This document shows, piece after piece, positions 5,755-21,386 of a stretch of DNA of 22,358 bases. The position numbers were made by a program, and so were the translations under genes. The notes beneath the pieces were generated by a model, which saw nothing but the letters and a program-made list of their open reading frames with translations, ran no database searches and was not told the DNA's origin. How positions within the stretch are numbered: the stretch's first letter is position 1; every line of letters begins with the position of its first letter. The stretch is from a virus, in the IMG/VR virus record IMGVR_UViG_3300003690_000427, positions 1 to 22,358 of that record; one strand, given 5' to 3'.

Positions 5755-8700
5755 TCACCTTCCGGCGCCACTCCCCGGGTCGTACACGCCTCCATTGCCA
5801 TTTCCATTTCCATTACCGTTTCCATTACCGTTTCCATTGCCATTTCCATTACCGTTTCCATTTCCATTGCCATTTCCGTTGCCATTACCGTTGCCATTTC
5901 CGTTGCCGTTGCCTCCGTTAGAACTGGGTGCCGGCATATTGGTACTCATTGGATCTATTCCGGTACCATCTGCCGAGCTAAACTCAATTCCCAAATCAAG
6001 ACTAGCATATTCAACCAAACTGAAAAAATCATAAGGCCAATTCACATATGTATCATCCTCCCAGCGAGTAGTGGTGCCAACATATGTTTGGTCAAAATAG
6101 CTGGTTGCTGCCTTTTTCTTTACTTTAAACACCATAAAACGTAAATTTTCAAGCGTATATTTCATCGTCGTCGCGGCAACTGTTTGGCCGGCTTGATTTA
6201 CCTGACTGCGGAGCAATCCCCCTAAAAACTCTGAACTGTCGATTTGGTGCTCTATCGTCACTTCCTGTTCTTCAAACGTTCTTCCAATTTTTGGGGGCAA
6301 ATTCTGCCAAATATCGCTTAAATCTAAACTATCCAACGTATGACTAAATTCAAAAATATACATCACAAACGGATCTATAGAACTATCAGATATAAAATCA
6401 AACTCCTGCGGAAAATAATATTTTTGCATTTTTTCAACCATGTTAACAATAGAATCGCCGATGCCCTCCGTATCTCCAGCAAGGACATTATCAAGGACTC
6501 CCCGGGCGTCATCAACATCAAGCTTAACAAATGAACGATCGGAGCCGTGCTCTACAAACGGAATTGCCACAATCGCTTCTGTTATTTCCTTACCATATAC
6601 TCTGGTTTGTCCTAATTTTTTTGCGGTGGTGTCAAATCCAATTACTGATGCTAAATCTTTGGTTACTGATGGGGCATAACCGTATTTTTCTGTCATCCAT
6701 CGCTGTTCAATTTCCCCTATTTGCAAATAGATTCCCTCTGCCGAGGAAGATGGCGTGTGACCATACTGATGCCACATCCCGCGGGGTGTAGAGCCGGTAC
6801 CGTATGCGGGGGCTGTAACCTCTCCCGAAGTTTCCTTAAAATCTAAAATAGGAGTCTCAAATTTCGGCGAAATAACCCATCTAGTGGAATTTGCTGTTGG
6901 AGAACCGCCGCGGACAGGTTGTGGAGGAACTATTTCAGAGCCAAACAAGTTGATTGATGCGCTAATTTGCATAGCATATGCGTTAACTAATGATTCGTGT
7001 TGCGGTCCTTCGTGCGAATGCGCTGCTTGCCAACCCTGCGCGTTGCTGCCAGTAACACGCCAATAATGAACCACGCTAGCGCTTAAGATGTCTTCGATCG
7101 AAGGATCAGTAGCATCGTCCCCCGTGGGCGCAAAAATAATATCAGCCCATGCTTCGCCATAATAATATGGCGGAGTGAACGGATAATTATATCCGTGTCT
7201 ACTATCAAACGATCCACCTGGCGTTTCTAAAACGGGGGGCCCAAAAGCAGTTGGACGACTATACATCAACAATGATTGATGAATATTTGACCCGGTCAAT
7301 TGTGGTATCTCAACCTGAGTGGTGTCCAGTGGCCTAGCAACACCGCCACGAGTTGAAGAATATAATTTAACCCTCATTCCATAGGCTTTTCCCGGATTAA
7401 ATAAATTCGCATAAGAATCAGAAGCCTTTGATTTAATCGTTGTAAACCCACTTAAAAAGAAATTAGGTACTTCTCCAAAAAAGTTTTCTGCCATCAACCG
7501 ATATTTGGTATCATCAGCGGCTACTTTCAAAGAAGCGGTAATGTTTATGGAGGCAGATGGGTGCGGAAACATATCAACTATTTCCAAGCCCCTAACTTGC
7601 GCTGGATCGATCAAAGCTTCAAAAGGGATTCTCTTTTGGAATCCTTCTTCAACGGTGTGCGATGATGTCATTATAAGAAAATCGTATACCGGTAACGAGG
7701 CTGATGTTTTATAAACTCCATACGAGGATGTATATACGGGGAAATCTACAGCCATCCCGGATTTTATTGTATTATACATGATTCCCGGGGCATAAAATGG
7801 AGCCAAAAATGTTCTGAACGCCGTCCCCTCTTTCTTCAAATTAGTTTCGCCTTCATAAGTAAGCTTTGAAGAATATGAGGAGGAAAATTCTTCTGCTAAT
7901 TGAACAGTTCTTTCTGCAGGATAGAAGCCATCATATGGGAGTAATTTAAGAATTCCCCTTGCTTTAAATTTTATTTTAGACGGTAGCACATATCCATTGT
8001 GATCGTTGAACACTTTCATGAATTCATCGCCCAACAACTCAGCAAACGAGTACGTCTCATAAAATTTATCAGCTAATGCAGTTTCAGATCTCCAACTATC
8101 AGAAATTCCACCAGTTATGAACAGCGCGCCGTTATCTAGCGTATCAAGCCCCAAAAGTCTTGGGAGGTATCTTTCAGAAACTCTATATTCAGGTAATGTT
8201 GTATATCCCTTTCCTTTAAATCTAATAATGTCAGCATAATCTTCATATGAATCATAAAAAGGATTTCTGACTGAAGCACTAAAATTGATTATGTTATTTT
8301 CGTCCTGATCGACAAATAGCGAGTTATAGCCGGCCTGATCGGCCGCTTGCCACAAGGCATTGCCGCCAAATAATCCATTTTCTTGAATTATTGGCAGCGT
8401 CGATGCAGTTTCTGGCATTTCTATGTCTGCCAATGGATTAATTGCTGATTTTGGATGATAAGACGTCTGCTTTAAAGAATAAAGCGCCCTAGGGCGCAAT
8501 ACTCCCAAAATTTTATTAATGGTACTCTGACCATGTACATGAGTTTCATAATTTTGCAGCACGCCGGCGCCGGTAGGTGGTGCCGAAGGATAAAATGAAG
8601 AATCATGAGACGTAAAATCACTTTCTGCGTCCAAAGTCCACATACTTTGCGTCAAAAACGAATAGTTAAACCTATTCTTTATTGCGGTACCGTCTTTAGT

Positions 8701-8856
8701 CCTTTTTGAGCGGCTGTCTTTCCAGAAAATGTTAATATATGTGGGCCGTGATCTTATATCTCCAATATTGTTCTTATCTTGCGGATATATATTTTTTTGA
8801 AAAGTTAAAGAGTTAAATCCTTCGGCCGGAATTATCGTCGTGACGTCCTCGTCCGA
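5755..8856 (-). CDS. C-terminal part of a split large virion protein, no canonical start codon
   Basis: The frame is open from 8856 to the TGA at 5757-5755. The first ATG, GTG or TTG is a TTG at 8655 (966 residues from there), but the 67 codons upstream still read as protein: IIPAEGFNSLTFQKNIYP, then INIFWKDSRSKRTKDGT and, across the TTG, SFLTQSMWTLDAESDF. From the TTG, residues 238-250 read LLPYDGFYPAERT and residues 289-305 contain APGIMYNTIKSGMAVDF. I remember these motifs from one large structural protein of marine myoviruses, whose N-terminus is the HRNGPYGWPT region. Here that region is the separate frame at 8813-9388. So this is most likely the second half of one gene of about 1210 codons, joined by a +1 shift between 8856 and 8816. 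The C-terminus ends in 20 Asn-Gly repeats plus 11 residues. A role in the tail or baseplate periphery is inferred. Confidence 0.85.
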   Translation of the reverse strand, partial: SDEDVTTIIPAEGFNSLTFQKNIYPQDKNNIGDIRSRPTYINIFWKDSRSKRTKDGTAIKNRFNYSFLTQSMWTLDAESDFTSHDSSFYPSAPPTGAGVLQNYETHVHGQSTINKILGVLRPRALYSLKQTSYHPKSAINPLADIEMPETASTLPIIQENGLFGGNALWQAADQAGYNSLFVDQDENNIINFSASVRNPFYDSYEDYADIIRFKGKGYTTLPEYRVSERYLPRLLGLDTLDNGALFITGGISDSWRSETALADKFYETYSFAELLGDEFMKVFNDHNGYVLPSKIKFKARGILKLLPYDGFYPAERTVQLAEEFSSSYSSKLTYEGETNLKKEGTAFRTFLAPFYAPGIMYNTIKSGMAVDFPVYTSSYGVYKTSASLPVYDFLIMTSSHTVEEGFQKRIPFEALIDPAQVRGLEIVDMFPHPSASINITASLKVAADDTKYRLMAENFFGEVPNFFLSGFTTIKSKASDSYANLFNPGKAYGMRVKLYSSTRGGVARPLDTTQVEIPQLTGSNIHQSLLMYSRPTAFGPPVLETPGGSFDSRHGYNYPFTPPYYYGEAWADIIFAPTGDDATDPSIEDILSASVVHYWRVTGSNAQGWQAAHSHEGPQHESLVNAYAMQISASINLFGSEIVPPQPVRGGSPTANSTRWVISPKFETPILDFKETSGEVTAPAYGTGSTPRGMWHQYGHTPSSSAEGIYLQIGEIEQRWMTEKYGYAPSVTKDLASVIGFDTTAKKLGQTRVYGKEITEAIVAIPFVEHGSDRSFVKLDVDDARGVLDNVLAGDTEGIGDSIVNMVEKMQKYYFPQEFDFISDSSIDPFVMYIFEFSHTLDSLDLSDIWQNLPPKIGRTFEEQEVTIEHQIDSSEFLGGLLRSQVNQAGQTVAATTMKYTLENLRFMVFKVKKKAATSYFDQTYVGTTTRWEDDTYVNWPYDFFSLVEYASLDLGIEFSSADGTGIDPMSTNMPAPSSNGGNGNGNGNGNGNGNGNGNGNGNGNGNGNGNGNGNGNGNGNGGVYDPGSGAGR
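5791..5910 (-). repeat. Hexanucleotide tandem repeat encoding (Asn-Gly)20
   Basis: Twenty tandem 6-base units of the form AAY-GGN read on the minus strand. They encode residues 916-955 (counted from the TTG at 8655) of the downstream half of the split gene, just before its 11-residue C-terminal tail. Units vary at synonymous positions (AAT/AAC, GGA/GGC/GGT), so the array is not perfectly uniform at DNA level while the dipeptide is perfectly kept. The product should be a flexible, unstructured tether. Repeats like this can change length by slippage. The same repeat reappears at 21351-21374. Confidence 0.95.
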
Positions 8857-9388
8857 TCATGTCTGACAATACTATATCATGATCAAGATTGACTTGTTCG
8901 TTGGCAAAAAATGTGAAATTATTATTATAGGATACTTTAATTTTTACATTTATTCCGGTGTCGTCCGAATCTTTTACTACAATTAAATCATATTCCAAAG
9001 GATAATTATTAAATTTTATGGACGGCTCTGTTGCAATTGCTATATTATCTTGGGGGTTGTTTGTCACCTCGTAAGTAAAAATGGAGTTTTCCTTATAATA
9101 TTTAACAATTCTTTTATCAGCATTTCTTGTTTGTTTAAACGTTGGCCAACCATACGGGCCATTACGATGTAAGTTTAATACAACAAGCTCAGTAACATCC
9201 GGAATCGTAGTAAACAAGGTGTTTTTATATGGAGATGGCCATGACCCCTCGCGAGACGCGGCGCCGCTGAGAGCCGTTGGATATCCTATACTGGAGGTTG
9301 TGTCTGAATCAGAACGAAAAAGAGAGCCACTCACAATTGGGTCATAAACATACGTATTCAGTCCTACAAAATCAATTTTATGTGCCAT
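8813..9388 (-). CDS. N-terminal part of a split large virion protein, 191 residues
   Basis: ATG at 9388-9386 follows GAGAG at 9398-9394 by 5 nt, and the stop of the upstream gene lies within 10 nt. The protein begins MAHKIDFVGLNTYVYDPIVS. Residues 74-88 read HRNGPYGWPTFKQTR, a motif I remember near the N-terminus of very large structural proteins of marine T4-like phages. In those it is followed by beta strands, then a YP...FWRDSR..RT region and an SQSMWPLD region. The latter two are present here, but in another frame just downstream (5755-8856). The frame stops at 8815-8813, about 40 bases after the other frame opens. The last residues (GRGRHDDNSGRRI) look like out-of-frame sequence. This is best read as the front of one interrupted gene. 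A truly separate 191-residue protein is possible but less likely. Confidence 0.85.
   Translation of the reverse strand: MAHKIDFVGLNTYVYDPIVSGSLFRSDSDTTSSIGYPTALSGAASREGSWPSPYKNTLFTTIPDVTELVVLNLHRNGPYGWPTFKQTRNADKRIVKYYKENSIFTYEVTNNPQDNIAIATEPSIKFNNYPLEYDLIVVKDSDDTGINVKIKVSYNNNFTFFANEQVNLDHDIVLSDMIGRGRHDDNSGRRI
8816..8856 (-). other. Frameshift window joining the two halves of the split gene (+1)
   Basis: The upstream frame (from ATG 9388) ends at TAA 8815-8813. The downstream frame is open from 8856, just after a TGA at 8859-8857. A single +1 shift (one extra base in the DNA, or one base skipped by the ribosome) anywhere in these 41 bases joins them. An extra G in the run read GACGAGGACGTC would be enough. 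The SD-like GAAGGA at 8824-8819 sits directly before TTTAA, but I see no CTT-TGA type +1 slippery site. An assembly or sequencing indel, a real mutation and programmed frameshifting are all open. Confidence 0.7.
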
Positions 9389-9397
9389 ATTTACTCT

Positions 9398-12300
9398 CTA
9401 TAGGGTAGATGATATATCTTCTGCAAATTCTGGGAAATTAACCGCAGAAACGAATGTATCATTACTAATAACTAGCCCAGATCTAGGAATGTATCCTGTA
9501 AATGAGCCACTGGTATATTCTGCTGGATCCAAAGCCTTGCTTCCCAATGAGGCCGTCAGCCATGTATATTGAAAATCTGTTCTCGGAATCGCATGCTGAA
9601 CCCAAAAATTATCATTTGCAAATCCCAGAGAGACATTTACATTTTCAGCACTAGCGTCATAGCTATATCTTCTTAATCTATTTCTAGGAATTTTATGAAT
9701 AGACGCCGTTGTTGGATAAGTATTGGTCAATACGGTACCGTATTCAGAATCGATGCCAAATTTGCCACAATGGCGCGTCAAAAGTGTTCTAAGGCCCTCT
9801 CGTTTTCCAATTTGAGAATTTACTCTTATTGTGCTACTTTCGCCAGATCCCGATCCGCGTACGCTAAGATTGCGGAATGGAATTGCGTTATAGGGAGAAT
9901 ATTCTTGCGATTTAAGGTCTAAATATCCAAGAGATTGAACCTCTGGGCCTCCAGGGGCTGAAAATTTGTTTGCTATAATAATGTTCGAGGAGGAAAAGTT
10001 TGTAATTTTTTTATTATTTGTCGTAGGGAATCGGTTACTACTCGTCATCGTCTGGGTTATATCACTATTTTTGCGACCAAAGAAGTTACCCTCGGCGTTC
10101 TCGGCAGGACTGGGTCCAAATAGAGAATTAATATTTGTGGTTGCCGTTAAGTTTCTTCCACTAGCCGTTAATAATGACGGCAAAGATGTACCACCATTTT
10201 TTGTAAATTCGGAACTATTAAGAGATCGTCCACCAGCATTAACAACTTCGTACATGTTGGTATAGTTTCCAATTACAGTGTGCGCCGGCGTACCAGAACC
10301 CGTTGTTTGCTGAATATTTCGAATATTAACCGGTCGTTTTGCGTACTCATCGCGGTATTTTGTTGCGCGAAGTCGACTGGGGTCTGGATAAGGACCACCA
10401 TAATCAGCACCAACAAAGCCAAAAGCGCCGGCGGCTAGCGTACCGCCACCAATCAACAATTGCCAAGCCTCCGGCCGGCTGTATTCATCGTGTAAATTGT
10501 TTAAAGTGGCGGTACCATCCTCGGTTTTTAAAGAAGTATTATATACATTTAAATCTACATGTCTAGATTGGTGACCCCCAACATATTTTTCAGTGAACGG
10601 ACCTTGCATTGGTATTTCGCTGAGAGGTCCATACGAATCATTATGAAGATTTACCGCATTCGCACCAGTAGCAAAACCGTTCATGAAATATTTAGAGTAT
10701 CCGCTGCGCACAGATGAACTAACAATATTAAATGGAAGTGCTATGGCACCTTTAAGTATATCTCCATAATCTTTTAAATCAGTGAAGTCGCGACCCAATT
10801 GAACAGAAGTGTTCAGTTTCTTTTTAACATTCGGAACAAGCTCGTCAACACACTCGGGCGTGAGAACAGTAAGAGGTACACTCCCTGTGCTTGGTGACGG
10901 GAGACCAACGGTTAAAACGTTTAAAGGAATTCCTAGGGATGTTGGGCCATGCGGATAAGTAGAATTGAATACAAATTCAGATTTTTTGGAATCATTAAAG
11001 TTTATGCCGCCGCGCAACTCTCTTACTCTACTAATAGAAAAACGTTGTGGTTCGGATAGAGTTCGAAGAACAAATGTAGAGCCGGTATAAGTCGTACCAT
11101 CGCTTTTGGCCAATACCGGCGCCGATCTAGAAACGTGCGTTGTAATAATTTCCTGTATCGTGTCTCTCTGGCCATCGACGGTAGCGTCTCCCGACGTGGC
11201 GCCGGCGGCGACTCTCTTGACCCTCTCCTTCCACCACTGACAATTCGAGCCGGTCTGCTCAACATTAGATACAGCAAGGGGGTGGTGATTGAATTTCCAA
11301 TTATAAAGAAGCTCGTTTATTCCAAGAACTGCAGATTCCGGATCCGGATGCTTCATTTCCAACGTTGGGAATTTATGACGGTGTTTTGATCTCTCTAAGA
11401 TATGACTTTCAATGATATTAAGGACGCCATCAGAAAAATTAGCATTAGCGGGAATCAACTCCGTTATCATCAGGCTCAAAGAATTATCAATCCACTTAAA
11501 GTATTCTAAAAACTTTTCTAGATCTGGTGTATTGTTCATCCTCTCAAAGAAAATTTGCCGAAGAATTCTGAATCCCTTATATTCGCCACGATATCTGTGA
11601 ACCGGTTCACCAATAAGGTTGTTAAATTCAACAATTCCACTAAAAAATTTTAATATTTCGTCTGAAATAACACTGTACATGCTTTTTTCAAACATGAAGT
11701 AATGATCAATCGGCTGGCTGGTCTTCAAAAATACCTTATCGGAACCCTCTCCGATGGATATCAGATCTGAACTGTTATTAACATCTGGCAATTGTTGTCT
11801 ATTCGTGAAAATATACTCAACATTAACAACATCCTTCTTGAAAGGCAGAAAGTTATTACCCTGGCCAGTGTGTTGGCGGTTTAATATTTTAGTAACCCAG
11901 CTATAACGATTGTTGATATTCGAAGAACCGGACGAAAGATCTTTCACAACAAAAGTCGCATCCGATGTTGTTGTGGTACCATCGCTATTTGGACCAGATC
12001 CAGTTACGCCCTCAAAGTCCCAATGCAGCGCTAGCGTTTGAGCCTTTGGAATATAAGATCCAGAAACACTATCGACCAGGAAAAACGCATTTTCCATTGG
12101 ATAGTCCACTCCAAAGTTACGAGGATCCCGCGCGTGGGACTTTATTTCATCATCCGAAAGATAAGAATACCAATATTTAGCAGACAACACCTTTACATCT
12201 GTTTTCTGTTGTATTGTGCCGGTAATGTTTTCTCTATGCGCCCCAACAAACAGGCGTCGTGGAGTATGTAAAAAGGCAAATGCGGATCCTGTTGAGACTG

Positions 12301-14758
12301 ACGCCGTTAAAGTAAATTCATTCTCTACCAAATCGCCATATAATTGAATACCGTGAAATTCTAATTTATAATCATCATCTAGTGTGCCAGAAACAATACC
12401 CTGTACAGGAGAATTATTCGGCTTAAGCCGTATAGCAAAGGTCCACTTGTTATTATCATATAGATTTTTGTAAAGACTGCTGGTTAGTGTCGTATTGAAA
12501 GTGTATAACGAACTAGTCAACATGAACCGCGCATGCGGAGAATCAATCTTATCGCGAAGAGCAAGTATTTGAAAGCTCGCGCTGTCTGGGCTACGCCATG
12601 ATAAATTAGTACCAGTGGTGCCGTCTGCCTCATGCATGCCAAAGAGAGACGACGAAAGGACATTGGTGTCGAAATAATTTACTGCATCTGATTCTGGCTT
12701 TTTAGGGAAAACTATATCAACTTCGGCAGTATTTGATATAAAGGCTTCTAGGTTATACCCTTCGGATCCGGATATAAAGCCAACAGAATCGCCATTATCG
12801 ACGTCCTCATACTGATAAACAACACCGCCGGCGCGATCAGGACCATTAAAATCAATTATTTTTTTCTTTGTACTAGTATTTCTATAATTATTTAATAGCT
12901 CGTAGGTGCTATTGTTCGCATATAGACGAATATTAATTAATTCATCGTCAACCCCAAAGCATCGAATAAGATTGCGGAAAGATTTCTCAGTTCCCTTTGA
13001 TTTATATATCGCCGTTAAGTTGTTATAAATATTGATATAAATCAGATTTTTAATATCTGACAAATCTTTGGTGAAATCAAAATCATCATTCCTGGCTAAA
13101 AACTTTTCTAATATGTCCGAATCGATCAATATTTCCGAAGTGGTGAGTCCCTGAGATGATAACAGTTCTTTGGCAAATGGCAACGGCTTATAGGAAGAAC
13201 TGGGATAGGACATGTTCCGAAGTTTAGGCATCGCCGCTATTTGTGCGTGTAAAGTATCGAAATAACTTGATAAAATCTGTACTAATTGGCCCAAATGGCC
13301 CTGTCCCCGACTGTCCTCTTCATCGCGGATCCACATAGGAATGGAGTTTATTATATTAGAATTATTGGTATAATCGTATGTGGCGCCCTTGTCCCTGTAA
13401 GTCGAATAAGTAGACCTAACATCCGGATGGAAATCGTAAATTATAGGATCTCTAAATTCAGTCGAACTTGCACTGGCTATCACCATAGCGGAAGATGTCA
13501 AACGTGCGTGAGTTCCGGGATATCCTATCCAATCTCCGTTGGATATGCGTCCGGAATAATCTAAAATCGTCGCGTCTGTCGAGGACGTCTGTGTTGTACC
13601 TTCGTTGAATTTGTAATAAATTCCCAGGTCAACATTGGCATCATCTGTATTTGTGCCGCCATTGACTTGTGTCCACCAATTTTTTCCAACTTCAGCAGAC
13701 GAGCGAGAATCTTTCCAAAATCTAAACTCATCAATTGAAGCAGATAATTTACCCCAACCGTCTGTCGGAGAATCGAGCAAAACACCAGTCGGCGCTGTCA
13801 ACAGGGCGCCTATCCTAGCCTTTAATCCACCGGTTATCTCATTTATTGAGGTTCCTGTAACAACAGTCTGTAATAAGTTACCATCTTGATAAAATTTTAT
13901 TTTTCCATCACTACCGGTATTTTCAAAAACAAACGCATAATGGTGCCACGCATTAAGAGAGGAAGTTGTTAAAGAATCTCCAATTGGAACGTTAAGATAT
14001 CCAGACGAGCCAGAATATACTGTCACCAAAAACGGAGAAGTGTCATTTAAAGAAGTGGCGCCTGTAATTTCAATTCTGAGACGACCGTAGGATCCGACCG
14101 ATTGTGTTGCACTATTCCAGACATCAAATATGATTTCTTTTTTAGTTAAAGAAGTACTCCAACTACCGGTTGGCTTTTGTAGCCAAAATTCTATAGTGTT
14201 TCCAGTTGATAAGTCAAGTTGTAAATTTGAGGCGCGCTTTTTGCTTGTATCATATAGATTTGAATCGGCAAACGTCTTGTATGTTTCACCAGCAACCACA
14301 CCATCGCTAGCGGTATGGGGACCGCCATATATCATAATATATTCAGCGGTTGCCGGAAGTCCATAGCCAGCAAGAACGCTACTGCCGGCTGCTGCTTGTC
14401 CCCAGCCATCAGCGGACATAATAATGTGGCCATTTGTCCGGGGGTAGATTTTATCAAATACGTATTTATCTAAATAAGAGGAAGAATTTTCGTATCTTTG
14501 TTTTTCGGAAAGTGCTCCATCATACGGATATTCATTATAGATCCTTGTGATGGCGTCGACATAATATCTCTCAGCAGAACCATACTTAACAAAATTGGAC
14601 GCAGTAGTAAAATCTATTTCCGGTTCGAACCTTTCAATATCTTGTACTTTTGCTCTAATATATCGTTCGGATTCTACTTCAGAACCCTTTTCGTTGAGTG
14701 AGGCAGAAGCCAGAATCTTTGATGATTGGTTTTTCTCAAAAAGCTTTTTTAAACTCAT
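9398..14758 (-). CDS. Giant LamG-domain virion protein, 1786 residues
   Basis: ATG at 14758 overlaps the previous gene's stop as ATGA. The N-terminus (residues 1-110) is charged and contains FEPEIDFTTASNFVKYGSAE. A clear LamG/concanavalin A-like domain fills about 176-410: NTIEFWLQKPTGSW, the hallmark WHHYAFVF at 271-278, FYQDGNLLQTVV and the closing SIDEFRFWKDSRS at 341-352. A second, more diverged jelly-roll spans about 700-870 (NKWTFAIRLKP, RRLFVGAHRENITG, RDPRNFGVDYP). Later come KFLEYFKWIDNSLSLMITEL (about 1082-1105), GPFTEKYVGGHQSRHVDLN (about 1385-1402) and YRDEYAKRPVNIRNIQQ (about 1467-1483). I remember these last motifs from large structural proteins of marine myoviruses. LamG folds often bind glycans, so contact with the host surface or another virion protein is plausible but inferred. 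No enzyme motif is seen. It follows gp6 and the DNRLRE-like gene in the baseplate cluster. Confidence 0.93.
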   Translation of the reverse strand: MSLKKLFEKNQSSKILASASLNEKGSEVESERYIRAKVQDIERFEPEIDFTTASNFVKYGSAERYYVDAITRIYNEYPYDGALSEKQRYENSSSYLDKYVFDKIYPRTNGHIIMSADGWGQAAAGSSVLAGYGLPATAEYIMIYGGPHTASDGVVAGETYKTFADSNLYDTSKKRASNLQLDLSTGNTIEFWLQKPTGSWSTSLTKKEIIFDVWNSATQSVGSYGRLRIEITGATSLNDTSPFLVTVYSGSSGYLNVPIGDSLTTSSLNAWHHYAFVFENTGSDGKIKFYQDGNLLQTVVTGTSINEITGGLKARIGALLTAPTGVLLDSPTDGWGKLSASIDEFRFWKDSRSSAEVGKNWWTQVNGGTNTDDANVDLGIYYKFNEGTTQTSSTDATILDYSGRISNGDWIGYPGTHARLTSSAMVIASASSTEFRDPIIYDFHPDVRSTYSTYRDKGATYDYTNNSNIINSIPMWIRDEEDSRGQGHLGQLVQILSSYFDTLHAQIAAMPKLRNMSYPSSSYKPLPFAKELLSSQGLTTSEILIDSDILEKFLARNDDFDFTKDLSDIKNLIYINIYNNLTAIYKSKGTEKSFRNLIRCFGVDDELINIRLYANNSTYELLNNYRNTSTKKKIIDFNGPDRAGGVVYQYEDVDNGDSVGFISGSEGYNLEAFISNTAEVDIVFPKKPESDAVNYFDTNVLSSSLFGMHEADGTTGTNLSWRSPDSASFQILALRDKIDSPHARFMLTSSLYTFNTTLTSSLYKNLYDNNKWTFAIRLKPNNSPVQGIVSGTLDDDYKLEFHGIQLYGDLVENEFTLTASVSTGSAFAFLHTPRRLFVGAHRENITGTIQQKTDVKVLSAKYWYSYLSDDEIKSHARDPRNFGVDYPMENAFFLVDSVSGSYIPKAQTLALHWDFEGVTGSGPNSDGTTTTSDATFVVKDLSSGSSNINNRYSWVTKILNRQHTGQGNNFLPFKKDVVNVEYIFTNRQQLPDVNNSSDLISIGEGSDKVFLKTSQPIDHYFMFEKSMYSVISDEILKFFSGIVEFNNLIGEPVHRYRGEYKGFRILRQIFFERMNNTPDLEKFLEYFKWIDNSLSLMITELIPANANFSDGVLNIIESHILERSKHRHKFPTLEMKHPDPESAVLGINELLYNWKFNHHPLAVSNVEQTGSNCQWWKERVKRVAAGATSGDATVDGQRDTIQEIITTHVSRSAPVLAKSDGTTYTGSTFVLRTLSEPQRFSISRVRELRGGINFNDSKKSEFVFNSTYPHGPTSLGIPLNVLTVGLPSPSTGSVPLTVLTPECVDELVPNVKKKLNTSVQLGRDFTDLKDYGDILKGAIALPFNIVSSSVRSGYSKYFMNGFATGANAVNLHNDSYGPLSEIPMQGPFTEKYVGGHQSRHVDLNVYNTSLKTEDGTATLNNLHDEYSRPEAWQLLIGGGTLAAGAFGFVGADYGGPYPDPSRLRATKYRDEYAKRPVNIRNIQQTTGSGTPAHTVIGNYTNMYEVVNAGGRSLNSSEFTKNGGTSLPSLLTASGRNLTATTNINSLFGPSPAENAEGNFFGRKNSDITQTMTSSNRFPTTNNKKITNFSSSNIIIANKFSAPGGPEVQSLGYLDLKSQEYSPYNAIPFRNLSVRGSGSGESSTIRVNSQIGKREGLRTLLTRHCGKFGIDSEYGTVLTNTYPTTASIHKIPRNRLRRYSYDASAENVNVSLGFANDNFWVQHAIPRTDFQYTWLTASLGSKALDPAEYTSGSFTGYIPRSGLVISNDTFVSAVNFPEFAEDISSTL

Positions 14759-16260
14759 ATTCTCTCAACTCTGAATTTAAACGTGTAGGGCTGTTCTTGC
14801 CAACCACCGGCGGAATCATTATAGAAAGAAAACTTAATCCCATATTGATAGCCAGGATCCAGCATTGACATGTCTAGATCAAAATAGCTTCCAGACTTGT
14901 CATATGATAAGAAAGAGTAATAATAACTTCCGGTACCATACGGAATCGCCTTAAGGTCATCTACTGTTCTGTAAATCATGTAAGATGCGCTTTCAATAAT
15001 ATTTCCAATCACTTCAGATGTGGCCCGGGAATAAATATTTGGACTCCAATTCTTGTCCCTTACAAAAAGCCTAAATCGAGCGGTTTCATAATTGTCGTAC
15101 TTCTGCTTCAAATTTGTTATAGAAAGCACATATCTATTTGATGGGCTTACCAGTTCTGCTTCCTCGGCCATGGGCCTAATTGAACCAGTAAAATAGCGGG
15201 TGCTTCCGGAATACCAAACATCAAACAAATTGGTAAGCGGTACCTTGGAGGATGTGATGGCAACGCTGCAGCTATAAATTCCCGTCGATACATAACCGGC
15301 TGTGGCGTATTCGGTAGAATCCGCCGTAACATGCGTATCGTCTTGTACTAATGTTAATTTACTACCAGAAGGCGCCGCATTATCTAACGAACCAGAGTAC
15401 AGACTAGTTCTCAATAGTCCAGTTCCAACATCGGGAATATTGGCAAGCTTGCCGCGAACAATGTTGTACAGATAAAGTGTATTTAGATTATCCTCCGCCG
15501 GAGCCAGAGAACTACTATAATAAAAATTGCCTCGATCATCTCTTGTCCGCGAGTCCCACCGTGCTTCAATAATCGGTCGTTTAAAGAAAAATTCTGATGT
15601 TCTAGAGGAGAATTTTTTAGTATAAAAAGTCTCGCTGATTTCAGCAAATGAACGCGAAAGGGAGTCGGAGTTACCGGTTAGCGTTCCCGACATTCGAATT
15701 AATAATCCGTAATTATCGTACGTTTCAGCAATCCAATACTCTACCAAGTCAGTTATGTCAATGTCCAAATCCTCATTACCGATATACATATTTTGAGTAT
15801 AAATCAGATCCCCGGAAGATGTATGGGCGGATCCACCCGTCATTGACCAGGCAGTTGTGCTGCTAGCAGACATCCAATTGGATTCCCCGGAATCAAGATA
15901 CTCATCCATATCAACGCCGCGGCCCTCGTCCCAAGATTGGGAAGTCGCGAAAATCTGCAAATTATAGTTTTGGGGCAGCGTCTGCGAGTGTTTGACGTTA
16001 TACATCTTAAGATAAAAACTCGTACTTCCGCTAGCTGCAATTGTATTAGATGTTCTATCCGTGCTAATATCACTAATAGGAAATTTAATTAAAATTCGCG
16101 CCTCTTCAAAAGACGCAGATGATGCTTGCTGGTAAATGTTAAAAGTTTCCAAGGAGTCGGCTAGGCCCATATTAGAGCCGGTACCTCTCTTTTTCAGATC
16201 GCTTTTATACGCATTTGTGATAGTACCATCTGCGTCTGCAAAATATCTTTTAATGGCCAT
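14755..16260 (-). CDS. Putative baseplate or tail protein with a DNRLRE-like beta domain, 501 residues
   Basis: ATG at 16260 overlaps the gp6 stop by 1 nt (TAATG), with AGAGGA about 12 nt upstream, so translation is probably coupled to gp6. The N-terminus is MAIKRYFADADGTITNAYKS. Residues 33-210 follow the pattern of DNRLRE-type surface beta domains: ARILIKFPISDI (54-65), then a strand with SFYLKMYNVKHSQTL (81-95), SQSWDEGRG (107-115), an Asn-Trp dipeptide, and DIDITDLVEYWIAETYDNYG (166-185), the usual 'D.T..V..W......N.G' ending. The rest is beta-rich and reaches FKFRVERI at the C-terminus without any catalytic motif. DNRLRE domains are known from secreted and cell-surface adhesion or structural proteins. 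Its use on a phage tail here is inferred from position. It could be the functional stand-in for one of T4 gp7 to gp10, but I see no direct similarity to them. Confidence 0.88.
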   Translation of the reverse strand: MAIKRYFADADGTITNAYKSDLKKRGTGSNMGLADSLETFNIYQQASSASFEEARILIKFPISDISTDRTSNTIAASGSTSFYLKMYNVKHSQTLPQNYNLQIFATSQSWDEGRGVDMDEYLDSGESNWMSASSTTAWSMTGGSAHTSSGDLIYTQNMYIGNEDLDIDITDLVEYWIAETYDNYGLLIRMSGTLTGNSDSLSRSFAEISETFYTKKFSSRTSEFFFKRPIIEARWDSRTRDDRGNFYYSSSLAPAEDNLNTLYLYNIVRGKLANIPDVGTGLLRTSLYSGSLDNAAPSGSKLTLVQDDTHVTADSTEYATAGYVSTGIYSCSVAITSSKVPLTNLFDVWYSGSTRYFTGSIRPMAEEAELVSPSNRYVLSITNLKQKYDNYETARFRLFVRDKNWSPNIYSRATSEVIGNIIESASYMIYRTVDDLKAIPYGTGSYYYSFLSYDKSGSYFDLDMSMLDPGYQYGIKFSFYNDSAGGWQEQPYTFKFRVERI

Positions 16261-17948
16261 TAAACAACTGTTCCTCTGATGTCAGAATCTGGGAATTTAA
16301 TTTCAAAAACAACATTTTTCGGCGCCATAATATATCTACCATCTGCTGATTTCATAGCTTCAATTGGAAAAAAGGTAGAAGCATAATCGCCACCTTTCTT
16401 GATTACAACATCTATACTTTCAACATCAACAACTCCATCAACTTTATTTAAAAGCTTCATGGTTCTAGATATCTCAAATGGCTGTCCGATCATTTGCTTA
16501 TTAGAATATTCCTCTTTTAGAATGGTTACGCATTTCTCTAAGACATCGTATTTATTAAAATTTTGTTCGGCAACAACCTTAAAATGTACCGCAAGATTAA
16601 CTATTAATGCATCTAGCAAATCAATCGTATCATTTATCATCTTATGCTGAGAAAGCCAAGTTTTTACATTATTCTTAATTGTACTGTTCGCTGTAGATAA
16701 GTTTCGACTTTCATCCTCGGATATCAAATAAATATTTAAATTTCTCCGGAGTGAGTCGTTGTCGGTCATTACACGACAGCGCTTAATAGCGCCATATTTG
16801 CCGGGCATCGAATAAATAAAACTTTCATAATCTTGCGCTGTCACTGCCCTATTTTGAGTTGCAAAAAAGTCCTTTGAGCGGATCCGCAACTCATCGGCCG
16901 ATGGGATTTGAGAATCGCCAGAAATTGGCCCCTCATTTAATACCTCCAAAGTCACGCTGGGATTAATCCGATAATTAACGGTCAATGTTGTATCGGACGG
17001 ACCTATGCCAAATTTATCTGTATTTAATAATTTATAGGGATCAAAGTTAACATCTGAGACGTAGGATTTTCCAATAGCGTCAATCACAACATCAGAAGGA
17101 TCGGCCACATTATTAATTTTAATATCCTCTTCGGAACCAAATCCAAATTGTAAATATATATCATTCAAGCCATCGCGCTCAACAGTAAAACGCCTAGCAA
17201 CCAAGGCCGGCTTTATTATTGACGGCGTATTATCGGTACCAAAATTTGGATTTGGAAATTCCTTAAGGACAACGTTTTGAGACAAGTAATCAACTTCAAA
17301 ATATTCATTCCCCTCGGCATCAAAAACAGACATCATTTCAGTAAAGCTTCTACTGCGCAACTTCACTTTTCGAAACCGCTCAAATGAACCGACTGAAATA
17401 TCTTGTGTAACAAAGTCTCCGGAGGTGACTCGCCCGGGCATTCGAATGGCATAATAAGTCGGTAATCCACTAGTTGGATTCACGCGCGCGGCGACAGTAA
17501 TTGCTTCGCTACTGTTGAAATTTACATTTTCGGTTAATATAAAGTTTACACCATTCTTCGAAGAAAGCATGGTACCTCTTTTAAGAATAGGAATATAATC
17601 AGCATTTGGTCCCAAGCCCAAAGTGTTTGCGGGTACCAGAATATAGAGAGAAACTATACCATTCGCAGCGGGCTTGCCCCTATATTTATAGCCCAATTGC
17701 CTTGAATGTCTTAAGACGTTGTTGTACTCAATGGCAGTATCAAAAAACGATTCATTAACATTATAATCTACATAATATGAAAGAATATCGCCAACATAAG
17801 AGACTGTATCGATCATCAGGGAGCCGAAGCTGGCTTCGCTAAAATCCTTATAAGTATCCGGATAATAGCGGCGCGCATAATCTTCTAAATCTCTTTTTAT
17901 ACTATTAAAATCTCTACTAGTATATTTTATTGGTACCTTTTTGGCCAT
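16260..17948 (-). CDS. gp6: Baseplate wedge protein, gp6/J-like
   Basis: ATG at 17948 has AAGGA (17961-17957) 8 nt upstream. The N-terminus YTSRDFNSIKRDLEDYARRY followed by SEASFGSLMIDTVSYVGD and YNVNESFFDTA (residues 9-72) is the classic opening of T4 gp6-type baseplate wedge proteins and the J-like family. The middle has FGFGSEEDI. About residues 320-390 carry VNYRINPSV, ADELRIRSKDFFATQNRAVT and AQDYESFIYSMPGKYGAIKR, the conserved block with 'F..QNRAVT..DYE'. At 562 residues it is somewhat shorter than T4 gp6 (about 660). In T4, gp6 dimers link the six wedges into the inner baseplate ring, interacting with gp25 and gp53; the same role is expected here. It follows the gp25 gene by 35 nt. This is a firm family call, and the conserved blocks are all in place. 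Confidence 0.95.
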   Translation of the reverse strand: MAKKVPIKYTSRDFNSIKRDLEDYARRYYPDTYKDFSEASFGSLMIDTVSYVGDILSYYVDYNVNESFFDTAIEYNNVLRHSRQLGYKYRGKPAANGIVSLYILVPANTLGLGPNADYIPILKRGTMLSSKNGVNFILTENVNFNSSEAITVAARVNPTSGLPTYYAIRMPGRVTSGDFVTQDISVGSFERFRKVKLRSRSFTEMMSVFDAEGNEYFEVDYLSQNVVLKEFPNPNFGTDNTPSIIKPALVARRFTVERDGLNDIYLQFGFGSEEDIKINNVADPSDVVIDAIGKSYVSDVNFDPYKLLNTDKFGIGPSDTTLTVNYRINPSVTLEVLNEGPISGDSQIPSADELRIRSKDFFATQNRAVTAQDYESFIYSMPGKYGAIKRCRVMTDNDSLRRNLNIYLISEDESRNLSTANSTIKNNVKTWLSQHKMINDTIDLLDALIVNLAVHFKVVAEQNFNKYDVLEKCVTILKEEYSNKQMIGQPFEISRTMKLLNKVDGVVDVESIDVVIKKGGDYASTFFPIEAMKSADGRYIMAPKNVVFEIKFPDSDIRGTVV

Positions 17949-17983: not shown

Positions 17984-18352
17984 CTAATTTATAGGAATCG
18001 AAAGCACCTCTCTCCCGAGTCCCATTGATGGCGAACTATAATAAATATTAACAACCAACGAATGATCTTGCTCTCCCGTAAATATATCAACCTTCTCAAT
18101 GGTGACCCATGACAAATATTTTTGGGTTTGAGACATAATTCTGTTTCTGAGTGGCCCAAAATTGGAAGTATTGTTCATGAATAAGAAGCTTCTTATCCCA
18201 ACACCAAACTCAATATCCATAACTCTTTCTCCGGGGCTTGTCAGGACAATCATTTTTAAATTCTGCGTTGCCAGATCTTTGATGGTCTGAATCAAATTAT
18301 AACCACCGTCTCCATTTTTAGCCAGTGGTAATCGGGGTGATATTCCTATCAT
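17984..18352 (-). CDS. gp25: Baseplate wedge protein, gp25/GPW family
   Basis: ATG at 18352 has AGGAG (18365-18361) 8 nt upstream. The 122 residues match the GPW/gp25 family closely in length (T4 gp25 is 132). The conserved block is VLTSPGERVMDIEFGVGIRS (36-55), with the signature PGER at 40-43 and the FG at 49-50, then a Leu-Phe and a helical stretch RNRIMSQTQKYLSW (69-82) leading into two beta strands. In T4, gp25 sits at the core of the wedge where it contacts gp6, gp53 and the sheath initiation interface. It is related to contractile-system proteins of type VI secretion and R-type pyocins. It lies between an unrecognised 791-residue gene (14 nt away) and gp6 (35 nt away), which matches the usual gp25-gp6 adjacency in many T4-like phages. 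Confidence 0.95.
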   Translation of the reverse strand: MIGISPRLPLAKNGDGGYNLIQTIKDLATQNLKMIVLTSPGERVMDIEFGVGIRSFLFMNNTSNFGPLRNRIMSQTQKYLSWVTIEKVDIFTGEQDHSLVVNIYYSSPSMGLGREVLSIPIN

Positions 18353-20742: not shown

Positions 20743-21386
20743 ATTTCTGTTCCCTCGACATCAACATCAATCGTAATCCCGGTAATATTGGAATAATTTT
20801 CCTTCAAAACACTAGCAAATATATTACCATACGAAGAATAGCCCTCGACAAAATCAAAAGAATTTTCTTGTTCACTGTTCAGGCCAAAATCTTCAGACAC
20901 AGAGAATTCAGTAATTTTTGATTCTGTTGTGGCTGGAAAATCGGCGATCGCGTACAGCCCAAATGGGTTATAGATTCCCAGAAAATCGTAACCAGAACTC
21001 TCCAATGTATCTAATCCGCCAGGATCCGCAGCCACAGGCAAGCCGCTCGCATCTCCGGATTTATAATCCGCTAAATATTCTAAATATGCTTCATAATTTT
21101 CAATATAGTTCTCGGCAGCAGCAAGAACTGCCAGGCCGTATCCTTCCAGACTAGTATACCCGGCAGCATTAATAAGTTGTTCAAACTCCTCCAAAGAGTC
21201 ATATTGCTCTGTGATTTCGATCGAAGTCGGTGCGCCGGCTTCAATACCGGCAATAACTGAATTCGCAAAGGAATATATCTGACCAACTGTTACTGTTGTC
21301 TGTAAAGTGTCATATTCTTCTTCTGGTACTTCTTCTTCAGGCTCCTCCTCGCCATTTCCATTGCCATTTCCATTACCTCCTGCCAT
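20739..21386 (-). CDS. Small acidic protein with an N-terminal Asn-Gly repeat, 215 residues
   Basis: ATG at 21386 has a perfect AGGAGG (21397-21392) 5 nt upstream, and the upstream gene stops 1 nt before the ATG, so the start is secure. The protein begins MAGG, then (Asn-Gly)4, then a Glu/Pro-rich stretch (EEEPEEEVPEEE at 13-24). The remainder is acidic and rich in Glu, Tyr, Ala and Gly, with helix-like runs (YGLAVLAAAENYIENYEAYL), and ends with a beta-like ITGITIDVDVEGTEI. No cysteine, no membrane helix and no recognised domain. The first 25 residues look like a disordered tether joined to a small folded domain. The end overlaps the next gene as ATGA. A structural or assembly accessory role is inferred from context only. 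The NG repeat links it to the split gene at 5755-9388. Confidence 0.85.
   Translation of the reverse strand: MAGGNGNGNGNGEEEPEEEVPEEEYDTLQTTVTVGQIYSFANSVIAGIEAGAPTSIEITEQYDSLEEFEQLINAAGYTSLEGYGLAVLAAAENYIENYEAYLEYLADYKSGDASGLPVAADPGGLDTLESSGYDFLGIYNPFGLYAIADFPATTESKITEFSVSEDFGLNSEQENSFDFVEGYSSYGNIFASVLKENYSNITGITIDVDVEGTEI
21351..21374 (-). repeat. Hexanucleotide repeat encoding (Asn-Gly)4
   Basis: Four AAT-GGN units at the N-terminus of the small acidic protein. On the plus strand, bases 21355-21377 are identical to 5831-5853 inside the larger (Asn-Gly)20 array, a 23-base exact match between genes 15 kb apart. Confidence 0.9.

Follow-up and report, generated by a model that had tools for sequence, protein, structure and literature searches.

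A reading-frame break in a giant tail-region gene of an IMG/VR virus is probably a lesion in the contig

Introduction

Phages make use of +1 ribosomal frameshifts, Listeria phage PSA being one example (PMC5009743). The PRFect motif rule for +1 sites demands a codon that is a run of one base (PMC10885494), and in GeneTack unclustered frameshifts that are validated by BLASTp are expected to be sequencing errors (PMC3711429).

Here we analyze a frame break in a viral sequence of 22,358 nucleotides (IMG/VR record IMGVR_UViG_3300003690_000427), referred to in its entirety as the window. A first-pass annotation had noticed that a large virion gene is divided between two frames in a +1 relation, the downstream one lacking a start, and had left three options side by side: a true split, a programmed +1 shift or an assembly indel. 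Our comparisons favor a lesion or an error and disfavor the programmed shift and the split.

Results

The minus strand of the window holds a run of tail-module genes, and the broken gene lies among them:

17984-18352, minus strand: gp25-like baseplate wedge gene (PHROG/Pfam match)
16260-17948, minus strand: gp6-like baseplate wedge gene (PHROG/Pfam match)
9398..14758, minus strand: ORF1, 1786 aa, N-terminal part of the putative giant tail/baseplate-region protein, ending with TAG
9388..9400, minus strand: ORF1/ORF2 border, TAG, then three same-frame codons, then the ORF2 ATG, with GAG 5 nt upstream
8813..9388, minus strand: ORF2, 191 aa, ATG at 9388 and TAA at 8815-8813, N-terminal piece of the broken gene
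8813..8859, minus strand: switch zone, 47 bases, the sole stretch permitting a frame change
8656..8856, minus strand: start-less stretch of the +1 frame, 67 codons, conserved in relatives
8653..8655, minus strand: TTG, earliest possible start of the downstream frame, without a Shine-Dalgarno sequence
5755..8655, minus strand: ORF3, 966 aa counted from the TTG, C-terminal part of the broken gene, with a (GN)n tract at its end

A gene for a 501-aa protein lies between the gp6-like gene and ORF1. This order (gp6-like gene, ~500-aa protein, giant gene) is common to relatives L002, L003, L006, L007 and L008, and the gp25/gp6 neighborhood suggests a baseplate or tail-fiber role for the giant protein. 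Residues 177-357 of ORF1 match a Laminin_G_3 domain (Pfam PF13385, E 8.8e-9), and ORF1 aligns with relatives at 35-44% identity across its length. ORF1 and ORF2 share one frame. The frame of ORF3 is +1 relative to ORF2, so that a shift of either +1 or -2 would lead into it. It opens at 8856, directly after an in-frame TGA (8859-8857), and stays open until the TGA at 5757-5755. The TGA at 8859-8857 and the frame-0 TAA of ORF2 set the limits of the switch zone, which takes in the final ~14 residues of ORF2 (IGRGRHDDNSGRRI). Joined, ORF2 and ORF3 make a protein of ~1,210 aa. On re-reading the frames, the coordinates, the missing start (8856 to TTG 8655) and the joined length given in the first-pass annotation were all correct.

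The 67 codons ahead of TTG 8655 contain no ATG, GTG, TTG or CTG. From codon frequency alone a run of this length without a start is expected with P = 0.03-0.05, and the absence of a start is by itself only mildly unusual; what exceeds chance is the homology. The 67 codons encode the conserved stretch ...SLxYxExVYP...RxRxxYxNxFWRDSRxDR..., in which VYP, RxR and FWRxSRxDR are conserved across the family. They had been described as coding-like, and these residues bear that out.

We built a profile of the junction region (298 positions) from 74 relatives, with the window left out. This relatives-only profile matched ORF2 at model positions 2-163 (107 bits) and, adjacent to that match, the +1 frame at positions 192-296 (81-86 bits); joined ORF2/ORF3 sequences scored 183-193 bits. 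Profile searches yielded ~160 further IMG/VR loci; each search returned its best 80 loci, which possibly favors unbroken copies, and loci overlap between the two profile searches, so that locus counts exceed counts of independent genomes. Among the matches listed, a single ORF spans the junction at 161 IMG/VR loci (136 distinct sequences), and the window alone is broken in the switch zone. In tblastn searches of the window with the relatives' ORFs, 112 single-chain proteins switched frame at 8800-8900, and no frame switch was detected elsewhere in the window with all of the relatives' ORFs as queries. In the first relatives found (L002, L003, L005-L008), ORF1, ORF2 and ORF3 align one after another with a single ORF of up to 3,974 aa, and in most relatives the three correspond to a single chain of ~2,800-3,970 aa. 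By blastp against relatives, the C-terminal gene has ~30-37% identity on both sides of the break. Judged by homology, ORF2 and ORF3 are the two halves of one protein. The proposal that related phages encode both frames as one long protein is thus supported by the 161 one-ORF loci, and the search for single-chain homologues that had been recommended gave, at this site, the same 161 loci.

The giant tail-region protein (to 3,974 aa) is widespread, occurring at >500 IMG/VR loci, and neither ORF1 nor ORF3 had a match in 50,697 phage records or in PHROGs. We found no near relative of the window in IMG/VR by protein, profile or DNA pattern, and none among phages by DNA or protein, in collections that may lack entries for this genome and its closest kin; the closest sequence in the tree set has 41% identity. 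Through the gp6-like gene, the nearest cultured relatives are two phages with 29% identity, Flavobacterium phage immuto and Microcystis phage Mel-JY01. A genome scan returned distant matches and fragments only, all in metagenome bins. One relative with 46% identity (L094) sits in a WOR-3 metagenome 'chromosome' with repeated runs of N. This contig is probably stitched and not a provirus, and because of the runs of N and its stitched look we did not take it as evidence of a host.

An AlphaFold model of a fused stretch of 442 aa was weak overall (pLDDT 56), but confident at residues 161-170 (pLDDT 86) and 191-200 (84), on either side of the loop that holds the switch, where residues 178-184 fall below 50. 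The model suggests that the break may interrupt a domain. A fold search with this low-confidence fused model found two viral matches, neither of known function. For 572 aa of the conserved C-terminal part of ORF3 (window 5935-7650) the model reached pTM 0.79, and this stretch had no PDB match by sequence or fold. (GN)n tracts occur in two proteins of the window, a long one near the ORF3 C-terminus (5780-5920, minus strand) and a short N-terminal one in a 215-aa protein (21345-21386, minus strand). A Pfam TrAA12 match on ORF3 residues 850-956 covers the low-complexity (GN)n end.

Some relatives encode the giant protein in two genes. About 20 distinct relatives begin a gene at the point where ORF2 starts, with a homologous 'M..(V)DFVGLNT', and nearly all of them have a Shine-Dalgarno sequence there. 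Of these DFVGLNT-start relatives, 18 form one clade (SH-aLRT 95) in a 94-sequence tree, and the window lies outside it on a long branch. The ORF1/ORF2 border (9398/9388) is thus a normal gene start that splits the same giant chain; the first-pass annotation was silent on this border, a second split of the chain but one with a real start. Recoding of the TAG to join ORF1 to ORF2 was considered and rejected, as TAG terminates other genes here and the border is normal in ~20 distinct relatives. Five further loci (L027/L028, L046, L054, L072) split just before SQSxWxLDA, with ATG and GGAG or GGAGG. Overall, recurring two-gene splits were seen in different lineages before DFVGLNT, before SQSxWxLDA and near the DNYWVSHPIPRSDLQYSW motif (L027, L028, L046, L054, L072, L019, L086, L044 and others), pointing to gene fission or fusion that may have happened repeatedly in this protein.

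These borders bear on whether the window's break is a true split, with ORF2 and ORF3 as separate chains and ORF3 starting from TTG 8655 or from a non-standard ATA or ATT (~8835-8830) behind GAGGA. The family does split, at the ORF1/ORF2 border and before SQSxWxLDA, and TTG 8655 coincides with the SQSxWxLDA split point. However, the TTG lacks the ATG and the Shine-Dalgarno sequence of the five relatives that split there, the window's frame break lies ~160 nt upstream of that point, and none of the relatives among the matches listed is split in the window's zone, with or without a working start. Moreover, the FWRxSRxDR segment belongs to the upstream chain in the SQSxWxLDA-splitting relatives and to the +1 frame joined to ORF3 in the window, and a start at TTG 8655 would drop conserved residues that those relatives carry on the upstream chain. 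ATA and ATT are very weak start codons. A usable downstream start with a ribosome-binding site was not found, given the 67 start-less codons and the bare TTG. We therefore favor a lesion over a true split, which we consider quite unlikely, because the zone is unsplit in the relatives listed, a usable start is absent and conserved sequence would be lost.

We then examined the switch zone for recoding signals. In relatives this zone is a variable, weakly conserved loop. It contains no frame-0 codon of three identical bases, no local repeat and no homopolymer longer than TTT, and its predicted RNA folding was no better than that of shuffles (z 0.44), giving no structure at the zone. Homopolymer slippage at the A7 (~8798) or T6 (~8910) run was rejected, as neither run falls within the switch zone. 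In a codon-by-codon re-pairing table, only the slip from AGG (8821) to GGA pairs as well as that of prfB from CUU to UUU, forming a G-U and two Watson-Crick pairs. This AGG sits two codons ahead of the TAA and is rare here (5.1 per 1000). The A-site codon that follows it is ATT, a common rather than a rare codon, and the ATT ahead of the TAA mispairs at position 1 on a +1 slip. A Shine-Dalgarno-like AAGGA overlaps the candidate AGG, with spacing unlike that of prfB. Profile scoring placed all single-base switch points at 183-190 bits and -2 paths at up to 192; because these scores are nearly equal, the exact switch point cannot be fixed. Late switch points fell 4-6 bits below early ones, a weak difference, and a codon-usage scan of the zone gave no clear switch point.

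A lineage-specific programmed +1 (or -2) ribosomal frameshift could join ORF2 to ORF3, as in some phage capsid and tail genes, with AGG 8821 to GGA as the best candidate site. Conserved sequence is encoded in both frames, and the rare AGG, its prfB-like re-pairing and the AAGGA are consistent with it. Against it, the zone lacks a codon of three identical bases, the codon after AGG is common, no downstream structure was found and the late switch points at which AGG lies score slightly worse. The +1 relation was found in 0 of 136 distinct sequences of relatives (among the matches listed, a set that holds no near relative), and a low-yield shift would be expected to leave a structural protein short of its C-terminal part. 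We consider this explanation unlikely, and favor a lesion over it because standard slip motif, structure and conservation are all absent. A more specific version, in which a deep-branching lineage uses a non-standard site, maybe AGG to GGA, and makes short and long virion proteins, is a doubtful prospect.

Discussion

The best explanation of the frame break is, in our judgment, probably a frame lesion in the contig, either an error of sequencing or assembly or a recent indel. ORF2 and ORF3 would then be a single gene of ~1,210 codons that encodes the C-terminal portion of the giant tail/baseplate-region protein of an uncultured phage group, and whose frame is broken a single time, within 8859-8813, by a lesion amounting to a shift of one base. 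Such a lesion could have arisen as a sequencing or assembly error, as a minority variant, or as a recent indel in the sampled phage. The comparisons show the single-chain homology, the uniqueness of the break and the lack of a start, and we infer that the cause is a lesion rather than recoding. Further points in favor are the GeneTack expectation for unclustered frameshifts and the hint from the model that the break falls inside a domain. A fixed mutation is less likely than an error or a minority variant, since conserved residues survive in both halves and every comparable relative has an intact gene; the contig sequence alone does not separate sequencing error from real mutation.

Several observations run counter to an error. 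With no run longer than TTT, the zone is not the site of a typical homopolymer error. No start-less frameshift of the giant gene occurred in the ~160 relative contigs among the matches listed, indicating that errors are rare in this gene, though the window was chosen as odd. In addition, the break falls within a variable stretch, which is also where one would expect a tolerated change. The sole other lesion of the giant gene among ~170 loci (matches listed) is in L203 (202-204), where one in-frame stop close to the contig end breaks the ORF1 homologue.

A broken frame could also mark a decaying pseudogene in a phage no longer in need of the gene. All other frames in the gene and its neighbors are intact, however, and conserved residues persist both before and after the break; because the +1 frame retains FWRxSRxDR, we see no gene decay, and this explanation is very improbable.

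Should the break be an error, the matter is a practical one: an automatic pipeline would list two proteins, a 191-aa orphan and one of 966 aa begun wrongly at the TTG, and a conserved segment of a single virion protein would be lost from the annotation. A genuine programmed shift would instead be a site of a new type for a structural gene of a phage. What also emerges from the comparison is a widespread giant tail-region protein, which certain lineages divide between two genes at fixed positions.

The window resembles known +1 frameshift genes, prfB among them, in that two coding stretches of a single gene stand in a +1 relation. Those genes have a proline or CUU slip codon beside a stop codon or a pseudoknot, none of which was found in the window, and the prfB frameshift is conserved across species, whereas the window's frame relation lacks such conservation. 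The gene splits of the same protein (the DFVGLNT type of L044 and the SQSxWxLDA type of L046/L072) likewise yield a long protein from more than one gene. Those splits have an ATG, a Shine-Dalgarno sequence and a fixed break site, whereas the break in the window comes without a start. In layout the window is like the giant single-chain tail/baseplate-region proteins of uncultured phages in IMG/VR (for example L002, L007, L008 and L044), which follow gp25-like and gp6-like genes in the same order, share ~30-44% identity with the window along the whole chain and carry the same conserved motifs; they cross the site in one ORF, where the window is broken.
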